From Immundisolibacterales bacterium (GTDB taxonomy: Bacteria; Pseudomonadota; Gammaproteobacteria; HK1), in the NCBI GenBank assembly GCA_026712715.1, contig JAPOPW010000030.1, forward strand, positions 1-64,000: DNA of 64,000 bases, read 5' to 3'. Shown here in pieces: positions 139-5,711 of the stretch (positions within the stretch are counted from its first letter, which is position 1; each line of letters starts with the position of its first letter). Position numbers and translations under genes: made by a program. The notes below the pieces were generated by a model, which did no database searches, was not told where the DNA came from, and saw nothing but the letters and a program-made list of their open reading frames with translations.

Positions 139-537
139 GACACCAAGACCGGTGCAAGGAGGGTACCCCTTTCGGGGCCCGCCTGCGCCGTGATTTCGGA
201 TCTGCCCCGGGTTCCCGGCAATCCTTGGGTCATCCCCGGGCGGAATGCAGGCGCGCCCCTCAGGAACCTCCAATACCCCTGGGAGATCCTGCGCGCGCGG
301 GCTGGTCTGGAGGATGTCCGTATCCACGATCTTCGCCACTCGTTTGCGTCGCGGGCACTCGCCCTGGGAGAGAGTCTGCCGATGATTGGCGAGCTCCTCG
401 GCCATCGCCGCGTCCGGACCACCGAGCGGTACGCACACCTTTCCCGGGACTCGGTAAAGGTATCGGCGAGCCGGGTTGCCGACAGCATCGGGGCAGCGAT
501 TCTTTCGGAGCGGGCCGGGCCGGAGTCGAACGGATAG
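139..537 (+). pseudogene. Relic of a tyrosine recombinase (integrase C-terminus)
   Basis: Only the C-terminal catalytic part of a tyrosine recombinase remains. From the GTG at 190 the frame encodes the HDLRHSFASRALALGESLP block, the LLGH motif and the catalytic RYAHL tyrosine, closely matching the C-terminus of the intact integrase at 642-1853. Similarity continues in the same frame upstream of the GTG to about 139 (a D-T-K-T-G stretch matching D-S-K-T-G of the intact copy). This shows that the first arginine-containing block and the N-terminal DNA-binding domains were lost rather than that the gene is short. I infer an older integrase left behind by an earlier or decayed element at the same site. 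It should not be active. Confidence 0.75.
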
Positions 538-641: not shown

Positions 642-1853
642 ATGGCCAAGCTGCACGGACGCAGGCTCTCGAACCGCACCGTAGAAAGTCTTTGCGCCGA
701 CCATCGGGACACGGTCTTCTGGGACGGCGAGTTGGCAGGGTTCGGCGTGCGCGTCTATCCCTCGGGCGCCAAGGTCTACGTCGTCCAGACCAGGGCGGGC
801 GGAAGATCGAGACGCGTTACCGTGGGCCTTCACGGGGTGCTCACGGCCCCGCAGGCTCGCCGGCGGGCGGCGCTCGTCATTGCCCGACTCAAGGCCGGCG
901 AGGAGGATCCCTTGCCGCGGCGGGTCAAACCGTCGGGGGATGCCGCGCTCACCGTGGCCGAGCTGGCGGAACGGTTCCTCCGCGAACACGTGGCGGTCCG
1001 GTGCAAGGAATGGACCATGGCGGCCTACCGCGGCGCGATCCGCCGGTGGATCGTGCCTTCGCTCGGTCGCCTCCCGGTACGTTCGGTCGAGCACGAGCAC
1101 ATAGCCGATCTGCACTATCGCCTGCGCGGTATCCCCTACCGGGCCAATCAGGTGCTGGCCATCCTGAACAAGATGTTCAGCCTGGCCGAGGTCTGGGGCC
1201 TGCGCCAGGACGGCAGTCATCCGTGTCGCTCAATCCGAAGATACCGGGAGCACCACCGTGAACGGTTTCTGTCGGAGGAAGAGTTCCGGCGGCTGGGGCA
1301 TGTGCTGGATCAGGTCGAGGCCGAAGCCGGGGAAATGCGCAATGGCGTCGCCGTGAAGTCCGCGGTTGCGGCGCTCCGGCTGCTGATGTTGACGGGCTGC
1401 CGCCGAAACGAAATTCTGACCCTGAAGTGGTCGGACGTCGATTTCGTGGCGAGCGAGTTGCGACTGCGCGACAGCAAGACGGGCCCGCGCGCGGTTCCCA
1501 TTTCTTCCACCGCGCTGTCGGTGCTGTCCAGGCTTCCGCGCGTTCCCGGGAATCCCTGGGTAGTCGCTGGAGCAAGACCGGGAGGACATCTCTCCAATCT
1601 GCACGAACACTGGCATCGGATCCGTTCGCGGGCGAGTCTCGATGATGTGCGTATCCACGACCTACGCCATTCGTTCGCTTCGCGCGCCCTCGCGCTCGGC
1701 GAGAGCCTTCCGACCATCGCACGGCTGCTCGGTCACGGGCAGGTGTCCACCACCGCCCGCTATGCGCATCTTGCCCGCGACGCGGTGAAGACATCGGCGT
1801 CGAGAGTCTCGGACAGCATTGCGGAGGACATCCGGGTGCGCGGTTCGGAGTAA
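642..1853 (+). CDS. Tyrosine recombinase / P4-type integrase (DUF4102 family)
   Basis: Full-length 403-residue site-specific recombinase. Residues about 8-90 look like the DUF4102 N-terminal domain of P4-like integrases, about 103-190 are the SAM-like core-binding domain, and about 207-395 are the catalytic domain. Catalytic residues are visible: R254 in TGCRRNE, H339 and R342 in HDLRH, H365 in LLGH, and the nucleophile Y374 in ARYAHL. The ATG at 642 fits the family N-terminus. Such enzymes insert and excise genomic islands, often at tRNA genes, but I see no tRNA here and no other island cargo nearby. The tandem arrangement with the relic at 139-537 suggests repeated integration at one site or erosion of an island. 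Confidence 0.92.
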   Translation: MAKLHGRRLSNRTVESLCADHRDTVFWDGELAGFGVRVYPSGAKVYVVQTRAGGRSRRVTVGLHGVLTAPQARRRAALVIARLKAGEEDPLPRRVKPSGDAALTVAELAERFLREHVAVRCKEWTMAAYRGAIRRWIVPSLGRLPVRSVEHEHIADLHYRLRGIPYRANQVLAILNKMFSLAEVWGLRQDGSHPCRSIRRYREHHRERFLSEEEFRRLGHVLDQVEAEAGEMRNGVAVKSAVAALRLLMLTGCRRNEILTLKWSDVDFVASELRLRDSKTGPRAVPISSTALSVLSRLPRVPGNPWVVAGARPGGHLSNLHEHWHRIRSRASLDDVRIHDLRHSFASRALALGESLPTIARLLGHGQVSTTARYAHLARDAVKTSASRVSDSIAEDIRVRGSE

Positions 1854-2025
1854 GGCGCCCGCCCGCGGTTACGCGACCGCAGCGCGAGCCCCCACTCTTC
1901 TCGAGGCGAATCCTTGCCTCCCCCGAGACGTGGCTCCCGAAGGCTCGCGGACCCTCCGTTTCGCCGCTCGTTCGCTTTCGATTCGCTTACTGACGGTTGA
2001 GATTTCACTGTCGATCCGAATCGTT

Positions 2026-2070
2026 TAGCAGAAAAAATATGAAATTCAACTAATTATAATTCTATTCCGT
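2026..2070 (+). promoter_or_regulatory. AT-rich island with a consensus -10 box upstream of the first porin
   Basis: A strikingly AT-rich stretch in a GC-rich window. It contains a perfect TATAAT at 2055-2060, with only a poor -35 (AAAAAA) at the right distance. A similar AT-rich patch with its own TATAAT (102-107) lies before the integrase relic, so the two islands bracket the integrase pair. It could be the promoter of the adjacent porin copy or the remnant of an element boundary. The rest of 1854-2096 shows nothing recognisable. Confidence 0.35.
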
Positions 2071-2138
2071 TTCCGTGAACGCCTTACGGAGGCTACAAGG
2101 CACTTACAGTCGCGATTGCGGGTGCTCTCGCGGCCCCG

Positions 2139-3110
2139 ATGGCGGCGCAGGCCGTCGACTTCACGGTGTCCGGTCATGTCAACCGCGCGATCGTGTTCAC
2201 CGACGTGGACGGCGCCTCGTCGACCACGAAGAACAAGGACAACGGTTCGAGCGGAACCCGGGTCCGGTTCACCGGCAGCTCCGACACGATGGCCGGCGTG
2301 ACCGCCGCCGTTAACCTGGAGCTCGGGATCAATCCCAAAGGCAAGCAAAAGGTCAACAACAAGGACGAAGCCGCCGACGACGACGATGTCACCGTGCGCC
2401 ATTCCGTCGTGTCCTTCGGCGGAGAGTTCGGCACCCTCAAGCTCGGCCACACTGGCGAAGCGGCAGACGGCGCCACCTACAGCGACAAGTCCGGCGTCTT
2501 CGGCGTAGGCCACGGTCAGGAGGCCGGCGACTCCACCGCCGCGAGCTACACGCCGGGCATGGGCGGCAGCCGGAATGCAGGCGTCCACTTCAGTTCCGCA
2601 AGCTTCGGACCGGCTCAGCTCCATGTCTCCGCATCAGACGGTGACCGTTTCTCCGCGAAGATCACCTTCGGGGGCGATGCGGGTGTCGCGTCCTATGGCG
2701 GTGCCCTCGCGTATCTCGATACGGGTGACAGCTACCAGGAGGTCGCGGGAAGCCTCGGCGTCAAGCTCGCGAGCGGCGTCACCTTCTCCATGGCGGGGGC
2801 CGGCCGGAGTGACGGAAAGGAGGGGAGCTTCGTGCAGTCGACCCTCGGCTACGTGTTCGGCAATAACGCGGTCGCCGTGAGCTGGTACGGGTCGAGCGAC
2901 GTGTCGGTGACGCGTGACAAGGACACTGCGGACGAGATGATGTACGTCGGCAACGGTCAGGCCATCGGGATCGGCTTCAAGCACACCATGCCGAAGGCGG
3001 GTGTCGAGATCATCGCCGCCGTGCAGCAGTACTCGGCCGATGAGACGATGGAAGGCGACGGCGACATAGACGACACCGTCGCGGTCGTCGGCGCGCGCAT
3101 CATGTTCTAG
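2139..3110 (+). CDS. Outer-membrane porin, start codon and signal peptide damaged (possibly silent or pseudogene)
   Basis: Gram-negative general-diffusion porin: a beta-barrel of about 316 mature residues beginning VDFTVSGHVNRAI and ending in the phenylalanine typical of outer-membrane proteins. It is a close paralogue of the porin at 4573-5541. Similarity at the 5' end starts exactly at the codons for KALTVAIAGALAAPMAAQA (from 2097). The preceding ATG-CAC-AAG of the paralogue is missing, and an in-frame TGA lies six codons upstream of 2097 with no usable start codon between. The first ATG in frame (2139) falls inside the signal peptide and would leave no hydrophobic core. A GTG at 2075 is out of frame by one base. 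The barrel itself is intact, so the loss is recent or the copy is a silent donor. Compared with its paralogue it carries an extra Lys/Asp-rich loop near residues 67-88. Confidence 0.75.
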   Translation: MAAQAVDFTVSGHVNRAIVFTDVDGASSTTKNKDNGSSGTRVRFTGSSDTMAGVTAAVNLELGINPKGKQKVNNKDEAADDDDVTVRHSVVSFGGEFGTLKLGHTGEAADGATYSDKSGVFGVGHGQEAGDSTAASYTPGMGGSRNAGVHFSSASFGPAQLHVSASDGDRFSAKITFGGDAGVASYGGALAYLDTGDSYQEVAGSLGVKLASGVTFSMAGAGRSDGKEGSFVQSTLGYVFGNNAVAVSWYGSSDVSVTRDKDTADEMMYVGNGQAIGIGFKHTMPKAGVEIIAAVQQYSADETMEGDGDIDDTVAVVGARIMF

Positions 3111-3129
3111 CCGGCCTCGCCCCCCTTTT

Positions 3130-3155
3130 GGCCCTCTCCCGCACGGGAGAGGGCC
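3130..3155 (+). terminator. Hairpin after the first porin
   Basis: A perfect 11-bp stem (GGCCCTCTCCC with its complement) around a GCAC loop begins 20 bases after the porin stop codon. There is no strong U run on the plus-strand side, but four T bases precede it. It resembles the hairpins at 3893 and 4515, which share the GGCCCTCCCC-type arm. Confidence 0.55.
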
Positions 3156-3240
3156 TCTTCCCGCCGGGGGTGAAGGAGAGGGAGATGCCGGACCCTGGCA
3201 TGTCAAGAGCATTCCACGGAATACCAGAGGATTTTCCCGA

Positions 3241-3810
3241 ATGAAGACACCGAAACTCACCATCCTTGCTGCGATTGCGCCACTGGCAGCATTCGGCGGC
3301 GTGGACGCCGCGATGGCAGATGAGATGGCAGCGCCCGAGATGCGTGTGTGGAGCACCACGCTGGGCGAGCCTGATGAAGAGGGCATGGGCGCGAGCCTCG
3401 AGATCGTCGCGAGCGCATCCACGATGGGAAGCAACGGCATGATCATCGAGAGCGTCAGTCTCATCGGCACGAAAACGGCCGAGGGCGAGGACGGGACGAT
3501 GATGACGGAAGTGACCAGCTCGATCGCGTGCGGAGGCCCCATCATGGTCGAGGGCGGAAGCTTCATGATCGAGTCCGCCCCCATGGACGAGGACAAAGGC
3601 GAGATGGCCGAGTCCGACGACGATGCCGCAATGGAAACTCCGTGCAAGTTCTCGGTCTCGGGCAGCGCCATGCACACTTATCGTTCGTGGCATAGCTGGG
3701 ATCTCGCCGGAACGGTCACCTTGGGCGAAGCCAGCATGGATTTCGCCATCGAAGACGCGGCTCCCGCGATGATCGTCGAGCCCGAGCCCGAAGCGGAAAA
3801 GGCTTCCTGA
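3241..3810 (+). CDS. Secreted Met- and acid-rich protein of unknown function
   Basis: I do not recognise this 189-residue protein. It begins with a clear Sec signal peptide (MKTPKLTILAAIAPLAAFGG, probable cleavage after about residue 26, at AMA), so the product is likely periplasmic or exported. The mature part is unusually rich in Met, Glu, Asp, Ser and Ala, with two cysteines (in SIACGG and TPCKFS) about 35 residues apart that could form a disulfide. Met-rich exported proteins are sometimes involved in copper or silver binding or in resistance to oxidation, but there is no copper gene nearby and that is only a thought. It sits between two convergent porins, on the plus strand, and is followed by a good terminator at 3893. 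Confidence 0.75.
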   Translation: MKTPKLTILAAIAPLAAFGGVDAAMADEMAAPEMRVWSTTLGEPDEEGMGASLEIVASASTMGSNGMIIESVSLIGTKTAEGEDGTMMTEVTSSIACGGPIMVEGGSFMIESAPMDEDKGEMAESDDDAAMETPCKFSVSGSAMHTYRSWHSWDLAGTVTLGEASMDFAIEDAAPAMIVEPEPEAEKAS

Positions 3811-3892
3811 TCGGATCGGAAGCAATCGTAGCAATCAACCGGATTGTGCCAACGAGTCCGTTGCACGCTCCCCGGTTCTGGTCTTCCTTAAG

Positions 3893-3924
3893 GCCCTCCC
3901 CTGTACCGGGGAGGGCTTTTCTTT
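3893..3924 (+). terminator. Rho-independent terminator of the secreted Met-rich protein gene
   Basis: A 9-bp GCCCTCCCC/GGGGAGGGC stem at 3893-3901 and 3908-3916, followed directly by TTTTCTTT. It lies about 80 bases after the stop codon at 3810. Confidence 0.8.
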
Positions 3925-4501
3925 CGGCAGGGACTTTCCCGCGCCCCGTTGAACGAAGGAGCCCCGAAGCGGAGACCGGTCCCGAGAGTCCTCTCCCGTC
4001 TCTCGGCGAGATCACCGACATGCATCGCGGCCGGCTTCTCATCCGGCCAAGACGGCTCGAACATGCCCGCGCGTTCATCGAGAAGGCACGGCCCTCTCCT
4101 CACGCTACCACGGGTTCTCGCCCTACATCGGTTACTCCATCGAGACCAATCGGGTCCAACATCCCCATTCATGACTCCTGCGTCCACCGGCTTTTCGGCG
4201 GCATGACCCGCACGTTCTGACGTGCTGTTCCCAACTACGCCAAGTCCGCGCGCACGGCGGCATCCGCGTGGACTCTGCCCCGCACGGGGCGGCTCGAAAC
4301 GGATGCCGAGGGCAGCGGCGCGCAGCCGTCTTTGCCGAAAGCGAATCGAAAGCGCCACGGTCGATGGAAGCGGCCAGCCGGCCAAGTGATCTGCTCTCGG
4401 TTCACGACCTCGCCAGGCGGGAACCGGCTGTGTTCGGATGGCCTCGACCTGATCATGGGACACACCGACCCCGCGTCGGTGCGGCCACCGACGGACGTTG
4501 G
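3925..4501. other. Gap without a convincing gene
   Basis: Together with the two terminators, this is most of a 762-base interval (3811-4572) between the Met-rich protein and the second porin. Short open frames exist on both strands, but none has a ribosome binding site, family resemblance or porin-like or integrase-like sequence that I can recognise. It may hold decayed genes, consistent with the accessory character of the first 5 kb. Confidence 0.5.
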
Positions 4502-4547
4502 GCGAAGAAAAGAAAACGGCCCTCCCCCGGGGAGGGGGAGGGCCGTT
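4502..4547 (-). terminator. Rho-independent terminator of the second porin
   Basis: A perfect 14-bp stem (4515-4528 paired with 4534-4547) with a five-base loop. Read on the minus strand it is followed by TTTTCTTTTCTTC. It begins 25 bases after the porin stop codon and is the strongest terminator in the window. Confidence 0.9.
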
Positions 4548-4572
4548 GAAGGTAGTGGTTGCCGGGTCCGGC

Positions 4573-5541
4573 TTAGAACTTGACGCGTGCACCGATGACC
4601 GCGACGGTGTCGTCCACCTCGCCACCGCCGTGCAGATCAGCAGAGTACTGCTGCACTGCGGCGATAATCTCGACGGCCGACTTCGGCATGGTGTGCTTGA
4701 CCCCGAGTCCGATGGCCTGTCCGTCGGCCATCATCCCGTCGTACATTTCAGTGTCGCCGCCGTACGTGACGTCGCTCGAGCCGTACCAGCTCACGCCGAC
4801 CGCGTTGTTGCCGAATACGTAGCCGACGGTCGACTGCACGAAGGTCGCCTCGTCTCCGCTGCTCCGGCTGCCACCCGCCATGGAGAAGGTGACACCGCTC
4901 GAGAGCTTGAGGCCAAGACCGCCCGCGACCTCCTGGTAGCCGTCGCCCGTATCGAGGAACGCGACGCCGCCACCGTAGGATGCGACACCTGCGTCGCCGC
5001 TGAAGGTGACCTTCGCGGAGAAGCGGTCGTCGTCTGCTCCGGAGAGGTGGAGTTGGGCCGGGCCGAAGCTCGCAGAGCTGAAGTGGATGCCAGCTTTCCG
5101 GCTGCCGCCCATGCCCGGAGTCCAGTTCTTCGCCTCGGACATGCCGGTCTCCTGACCGTGGCCGATACCGAAGACGCCGGACTTGTCGTTGTAGGTGACG
5201 CCGTCCGCCGCCTCGCCGGTGTGGCCGAGCTTCAACGTGCCGAACTCTCCGCCGAAAGACACGTTCGAATGGCGAACCGAGACGCCGCTCGCGCTATTGA
5301 CACCAAGCTCCATGTTGACGCCGGCGGTTATGCCGCTCATCGTCTCCGAGCTGCCGGTGAACCGCACCCGGGTGCCGCTCGAACCGTTGTCCTTGTTCTG
5401 CGTGACTGAGCCGCCCGTGTTCTGGTCGGTGAACACGATGGCGCGGTTGACATGGCCGGATACCGTGAAGTCCACGGCCTGCGCCGCCATCGGGGCCGCA
5501 AGGGCGCCCGCAATCGCGACGGTAAGTGCCTTCTTGTGCAT
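4573..5541 (-). CDS. Outer-membrane porin
   Basis: A 322-residue Gram-negative porin forming a trimeric beta-barrel for passive uptake of small hydrophilic solutes. The signal peptide MHKKALTVAIAGALAAPMAAQA is complete, followed by the mature start VDFTVSGHVNRAI. The barrel strands alternate, and the last residue is Phe in GARVKF, the signal read by the BAM complex. The ATG at 5541 is preceded by GAAGGG as a ribosome binding site. It faces the start-less paralogue at 2139-3110 and has its own promoter region (5652-5711) and terminator (4502-4547), so this is the copy likely to be expressed. The two copies are nearly identical in barrel segments but differ in several loops. Confidence 0.9.
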   Translation of the reverse strand: MHKKALTVAIAGALAAPMAAQAVDFTVSGHVNRAIVFTDQNTGGSVTQNKDNGSSGTRVRFTGSSETMSGITAGVNMELGVNSASGVSVRHSNVSFGGEFGTLKLGHTGEAADGVTYNDKSGVFGIGHGQETGMSEAKNWTPGMGGSRKAGIHFSSASFGPAQLHLSGADDDRFSAKVTFSGDAGVASYGGGVAFLDTGDGYQEVAGGLGLKLSSGVTFSMAGGSRSSGDEATFVQSTVGYVFGNNAVGVSWYGSSDVTYGGDTEMYDGMMADGQAIGLGVKHTMPKSAVEIIAAVQQYSADLHGGGEVDDTVAVIGARVKF

Positions 5542-5613
5542 GGTGTATTCCCTTCTGAATAACCCTGTTTCGAGTCCCCCGGCCCCTGTCTGCACTCGTC
5601 GACCGGAGCTGAG

Positions 5614-5633
5614 GGGGCGTTGCGCAACGCCCC
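5614..5633 (-). promoter_or_regulatory. Perfect 20-base palindrome in the porin leader
   Basis: GGGGCGTTGC followed by its exact reverse complement, with TTTT on the plus-strand 3' side. It falls in the inferred 5' untranslated region of the porin at 4573-5541, about 75-95 bases before the start codon. It could be an operator, a transcript-stabilising hairpin, or a plus-strand terminator. Confidence 0.5.
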
Positions 5634-5651
5634 TTTTGAGGAGCGGGCGAA

Positions 5652-5711
5652 ACGCTACCACTACCTTGGGCGCCATGCAACACTTTGTGCAAAAAAACTT
5701 ACGGTGTTGCA
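5652..5711 (-). promoter_or_regulatory. Predicted porin promoter with an overlapping inverted repeat
   Basis: On the minus strand TTGCAT (5675-5680) and TAGCGT (5652-5657) are separated by exactly 17 bases, a plausible sigma-70 promoter giving a leader of about 100 bases for the second porin. The -35 box overlaps one arm of an inverted repeat, TGCAACAC at 5676-5683 and GTGTTGCA at 5704-5711 (centres 28 bases apart), which looks like an operator. The rest of the 403-base gap (5542-5944) between the divergent porin and glutamate dehydrogenase genes shows no gene. Confidence 0.45.

Follow-up and report, generated by a model that had tools for sequence, protein, structure and literature searches.

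A startless porin copy beside tandem tyrosine recombinases and a possible two-state porin inversion switch

Introduction

In Dichelobacter nodosus, multiple site-specific inversions switch between variants of the outer-membrane protein gene omp1 (Moses 1995, cited in PMC5903667 and PMC11852207). In the vsa/HvsR system of Mycoplasma pulmonis, inversion joins a promoter, RBS and first coding part to silent 3' bodies, and a tyrosine recombinase gene lies nearby whose role has been demonstrated (PMC2268961). A literature search returned only known systems, namely these two and the R64 shufflon. The Rci system of R64 shuffles the C-terminal segments of pilV at sfx sites, and its alternative segments, like the headless porins described here, are startless.

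The locus considered here lies in the window, the whole 64,000-nucleotide stretch that was analysed, which is the left end of contig C6 (188 kb) in a genome of 5.05 Mb and 82 contigs (G000). The switch logic of omp1 and vsa is known; what we propose to be different is a site placed inside signal-peptide codons, at which whole porin bodies would be exchanged. Set beside omp1 as it is described in the papers citing it, the locus likewise has variant outer-membrane protein genes, in inverted geometry in the window; it differs in having only two copies together, and in that its recombinases are tandem arm-domain integrases. With vsa it would share a head joined to silent bodies and a tyrosine recombinase gene close by, here with a presumptive role. 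However, the constant part of vsa has 714 nt of coding sequence whereas the head here ends after three codons, and the proteins are unrelated. Alternative coding segments with an adjacent recombinase gene are also features of the shufflon, in which C-terminal segments vary, whereas here almost the whole protein would change.

Results and discussion

Porins of the window

The features of the locus are as follows.

139..537, + strand: remnant of tyrosine recombinase A, C-terminal residues about 273-404 of a 404-aa family member (tblastn 73% to intA of contig C58; Pfam Phage_integrase)
642..1853, + strand: tyrosine recombinase B, intact, 403 aa, with arm-binding, SAM-like and catalytic domains (PF13356, PF14659, PF00589)
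1854..2096, + strand: spacer from recombinase B to porin A, AT-rich beside the porin, without porin promoter elements
2097..3110, + strand: headless porin A, 337 codons, no start, Porin_4 barrel
2097..2119, + strand: shared 5' boundary and proposed crossover site AAGGCACTTACAGTCGCGATTGC, the homology boundary with porin B and the other headless copies
3241..3810, + strand: small secreted-type protein (tblastn 53% to L080:5180-4692, beside a headless porin in genome G001)
4573..5541, - strand: headed porin B, complete, the sole copy with promoter region, RBS and ATG
5510..5532, - strand: matching site AAGGCACTTACCGTCGCGATTGC, inverted relative to 2097-2119
5542..5710, - strand: expression head, with a GCAACA/TGTTGC pair, a 20-bp palindrome (5614-5633) and an RBS before the ATG

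The initial annotation described a full-length porin barrel without a start behind an in-frame TGA, and this is confirmed. The frame 2076-3110 reads TGA, TPYGGY and then KALTVAIAG...ARIMF and a stop; it is stop-free from 2097 to its end, and a frame scan from the TGA at 2076 to 2097 found no in-frame ATG, GTG or TTG. The first in-frame start is the ATG at 2139, within the signal peptide. Promoter, RBS and start are all missing and the barrel frame is intact. Similarity to the expressed porin does begin at its fourth codon, as had been noted: nucleotide homology runs from 2097 to 3114 against 5532 to 4568 of B at 78%, and ends exactly at codon 4 of B. The GTG at 2075 is indeed out of frame with porin A, but the suggestion that a single-base frameshift had separated the two is rejected as unsupported, because the sequence preceding 2097 has no relation to the headed leader, changes from one headless copy to the next and is common to no headed or headless copy. 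The spacer 1854-2096 has no homology to the headed leader and no TGTTGC or GCAACA.

Both porins match Porin_4 in Pfam. Porin A matches PF13609 with an E value of 2e-13 and has a porin barrel fold; its structure model is of modest confidence (pLDDT 66), and the fold search gave PorB and Omp32 as best matches, whereas the porin sequence profile found no match in the PDB. With porin B as query, A and B are the only porins in the genome, and among the genomes compared no porin outside G000 exceeds 44% identity. The two genes converge, which places their 5' sites in inverted orientation (2097, +; 5532, -), with recombinase B just outside. A tblastn search of 3811-4567 for an integrase remnant gave noise only.

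Headless copies in related genomes

The genus comparison comprised G000 and two genomes of the same genus, G001 and G002, the latter a single contig. Headless porins beyond the window lie at G001:C274:3596, G001:C358:6613 and G002:1373914. The 5' edge falls exactly at AAGGCACTTAC in three of the four copies and a few bases away in the fourth, that of G002, where the break falls at AACACTTACC, within a recombinase A gene that is itself truncated. The DNA upstream of the junction is different at every copy. The site pattern CACTTACNGTNGCNATYGC occurs two, three and two times in G000, G001 and G002, respectively, always at porin copies, with no control hits. Headless copies with nearly one 5' boundary are therefore found in all three genomes, which is beyond chance and is no one-off break; since G002 is a single contig, assembly error is unlikely as a general cause. 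From its recurrence, a boundary made by recombinases is well supported.

The headless and headed copies of G002 are in direct orientation, 1.13 Mb apart, and the G001:C358 headless copy is also direct. By chance, an in-frame ATG stands 39 nt ahead of the G001:C274 headless porin, the sequence around it being unrelated. A shortened porin fragment is also present in G001 (L080:838-1187). The rare codons GCA CTT, kept among the copies, were considered as evidence but carry little weight, given that the copies share ancestry and that such codons are frequent close to starts.

The expression head

The complete head ATGCACAAGAAGGCACTTACCGTCGC, with up to three mismatches allowed, occurs once in the whole G000 genome, at 5541. 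Each of the three genomes has a single headed porin, with RBS-ATGCACAAG conserved; in G001 and G002 the headed leader is GGGAATACACC-ATGCACAAG-AAGGCACTTACC (G001:C358:13500, - strand; G002:247848, + strand). The features of the head are kept at the headed porins of the genus and are missing from the headless copies. Across the family, 11 of 16 headed porins have TGTTGC/GCAACA elements upstream, for the most part between about -190 and -120; the five headless or 5'-cut copies have none.

The perfect 20-bp palindrome of the window, GGGGCGTTGCGCAACGCCCC at 5614-5633, lies 73-92 bp ahead of the headed porin start. A palindrome related to GGGGCGTTGCGCAACGCCCC is found in G001, and a different one, GAGAGGTTTCGCGAAATCTCTC, is similarly placed in G016, another genome of the comparison. 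They are possibly leader hairpins or operators.

Tyrosine recombinases beside porins

Recombinase B has the catalytic motifs TGCRRNE and HDLRHSFASR, and its gene lies 243 bp upstream of porin A. By domain content it is a member of the phage-type Arm-DNA-bind_3 integrases; unlike typical members, these occur as tandem pairs repeatedly beside porin genes. A single recombinase clade is found directly upstream, on the same strand, at the headless porins of the window, G001:C274 and G002, ie at porin A and two of the other three; the contig of the G001:C358 headless porin has no recombinase. At G001:C274 it is likewise an A-B pair that precedes the headless porin. Members of the clade also neighbour porins in G015, at a distance of 375 bp upstream, and in G016, where a divergent porin lies on either side, and outside this bacterial family no other genome among the 369 class-level genomes sampled carries the clade at E 1e-70. 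Because porins are a tiny fraction of these genomes, adjacency in five of the seven recombinase carriers would be unlikely by chance. The clade also occurs as pairs in unrelated islands of G010. One such pair (L087:8370-11460, contig G010:C9) stands beside an IrrE-type peptidase and a CD-NTase (SMODS), in a region that looks like a defence island.

In G002, recombinase A is cut short at about 204 residues and joined without a gap to the headless porin (L083:9297-9920), which suggests a deletion made by a recombinase. With no more than one mismatch, the motif CGCTTACGNNAYGCTTACSG stands 50-75 bp upstream of recombinase A (intA) in three genomes, and a further copy lies some 110 bp ahead of the G001:C274 headless porin; only sites at this stringency were counted, as the pattern also hits controls at two mismatches. 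At the window site the motif was not found within two mismatches.

Elsewhere in G000, at least four further recombinases of the clade, some of them truncated, lie in L044 (contig C58, 1-5229) and L045 (contig C72, 5603-9531), an array interrupted by an IS21-type istA/istB element. Contig C72 ends in an IS21-type element, and its last 141 bp are shared only with the end of C58, which places the C58 integrase array after an oxidoreductase gene (POR/TPP/DUF6537 domains). The same gene precedes the G002 locus. No other sequence matches the left end of C6, and C6 plausibly continues the C58 array, the join itself being conjectural.

Selection, divergence and conversion

The headless bodies are open in all four copies of the genus, with no stops. 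The comparison of synonymous and nonsynonymous changes between A and B that the initial annotation had proposed gave dN 0.15 and dS 0.43 over 319 codons. Polarised nonsynonymous to synonymous changes were 14:17 for A and 8:4 for B, and deviations at conserved columns numbered 55 and 54, respectively. Selection on the headless branches is not relaxed, and the bodies bear no signs of a pseudogene; a very recent beheading is conceivable. No conversion tracts were found between A and B: the differences are evenly spread, with a longest identical run of 26 nt against 27.6 expected (P 0.58) and P 0.99 for synonymous runs. Of the earlier proposal that porin A is a silent donor for gene conversion, the silent cassette is favoured by the recurrent boundary, the recombinases and the open frames, and conversion is unsupported in this genome, the geometry pointing instead to site-specific recombination.

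Three headless copies group in the tree as sisters of the headed copy of their own genome (support 99-100) and the fourth, G001:C358, is more divergent. Headlessness then needs at least three changes, so that either beheading was repeated at nearly one point or the copies have been homogenised. The G001:C274 headless porin and its headed partner form a mosaic pair, almost identical apart from one loop region, some 90 alignment columns long, that defies alignment. The G002 pair has a long insertion difference in the same loop. The variable parts of the porins lie between strands of the barrel model (pLDDT 66).

A possible switch and its alternatives

Our leading explanation, which we put a shade below an even chance, is that porin A is a silent cassette, devoid of promoter and start, and that its 5' edge serves the adjacent tandem tyrosine recombinases as crossover site in a two-state inversion switch. 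The recombinases would act on AAGGCACTTAC, codons 4-7 of the signal peptide. Recombination between the near-identical inverted sites at 2097 and 5532 would invert 2097-5532 and so swap the porin body at the lone expression head (5542-5710 plus the first codons), which is now joined to porin B, giving two states that express porins with different surface loops. We infer the action of the recombinases at the site, the inversion itself and the later expression of A; active inversion in the window is plausible. As in switches of the omp1/vsa type, there is one head per genome, the silent bodies are cut at a common point and a recombinase is adjacent. Inverted sites are present in the window (2097, +; 5532, -) but not at the headless copies of G002 or G001:C358; with their direct orientation these copies cannot at present be switched by inversion, and the switch, if it exists, would not be intact in every genome. 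Against a switch in the window itself are the truncated partner, recombinase A, the presence of the clade in the unrelated G010 islands and the missing CGCTTACGNNAYGCTTACSG motif. A silent cassette is favoured over a randomly broken gene, on account of the boundary shared by three genomes, mostly beside recombinases, the intact frames and the unrelaxed selection. The broader proposition, that the family carries an active porin switch, with tandem phage-type integrases, a signal-peptide crossover and a head (promoter, RBS and three codons) that selects whole bodies, is less likely than not.

The main alternative, though unlikely, is that the porin leader (codons 4-7) is the attachment site of integrative elements; insertion would part the head from the body, the headless porin being the dead attR side. 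In its favour, the window, G001:C274 and G002 all have integrase genes immediately next to the junction and on the same strand, the usual arrangement at attachment sites; the arrays and truncated integrases of C58 and C72 suggest repeated insertion; IrrE and CD-NTase genes accompany the related pairs in their G010 islands; and the integrase-associated motif has CTTACCG in common with the G001 porin site. Such insertion should leave a bodiless head (attL), yet all two, three and two sites of G000, G001 and G002 are porin copies and no head is present on the left side of the G002 locus, and dead stubs do not fit with bodies open in four of four copies under unrelaxed selection. Gene conversion appears less probable again. 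The pilS copies are a silent reservoir for conversion of pilE, and headless porins could be similar RecA-dependent reservoirs, with the recombinases incidental. This would suit the clustering of three headless copies with their own headed copy and the G001 pair, nearly identical save for its loop, and it works at any distance or orientation, as G002 requires; the even differences of the window pair and its dS of 0.43 argue against it, and the shared 5' boundary beside recombinases is left unexplained. An ordinary recent pseudogene, or an assembly error close to the contig end, is very improbable: the junction is only 2.1 kb from that end, in a repeat-prone integrase array, but independent assemblies, single-contig G002 among them, show almost the same boundary.

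If the inversion switch is real, both orientations of 2097-5532 are expected to occur, and bacteria for which assemblies are the sole source of knowledge would have a DNA-rearrangement system that alters a major outer-membrane pore. The selective pressure may then be phage or nutrients and not an immune system, and the locus would illustrate how an integrase attacking a gene's leader could become the switch of that gene.

Other porin loci

In G016 (L085:9226-14382) two divergent porins flank the recombinase in a mirror arrangement, and a near-identical inverted repeat of about 165 bp, spanning about -88 to +80, covers the leader; the porin bodies differ by about 20-25%. One of the two porins is cut off from its ancestral upstream region at -88. 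By its layout, the locus is a candidate for an independent porin switch. A contig filed under Gemmatimonadetes (L041:1-909) begins inside the leader, at codon 17, of a porin of this family, and was probably mis-binned and broken at a multi-copy leader.
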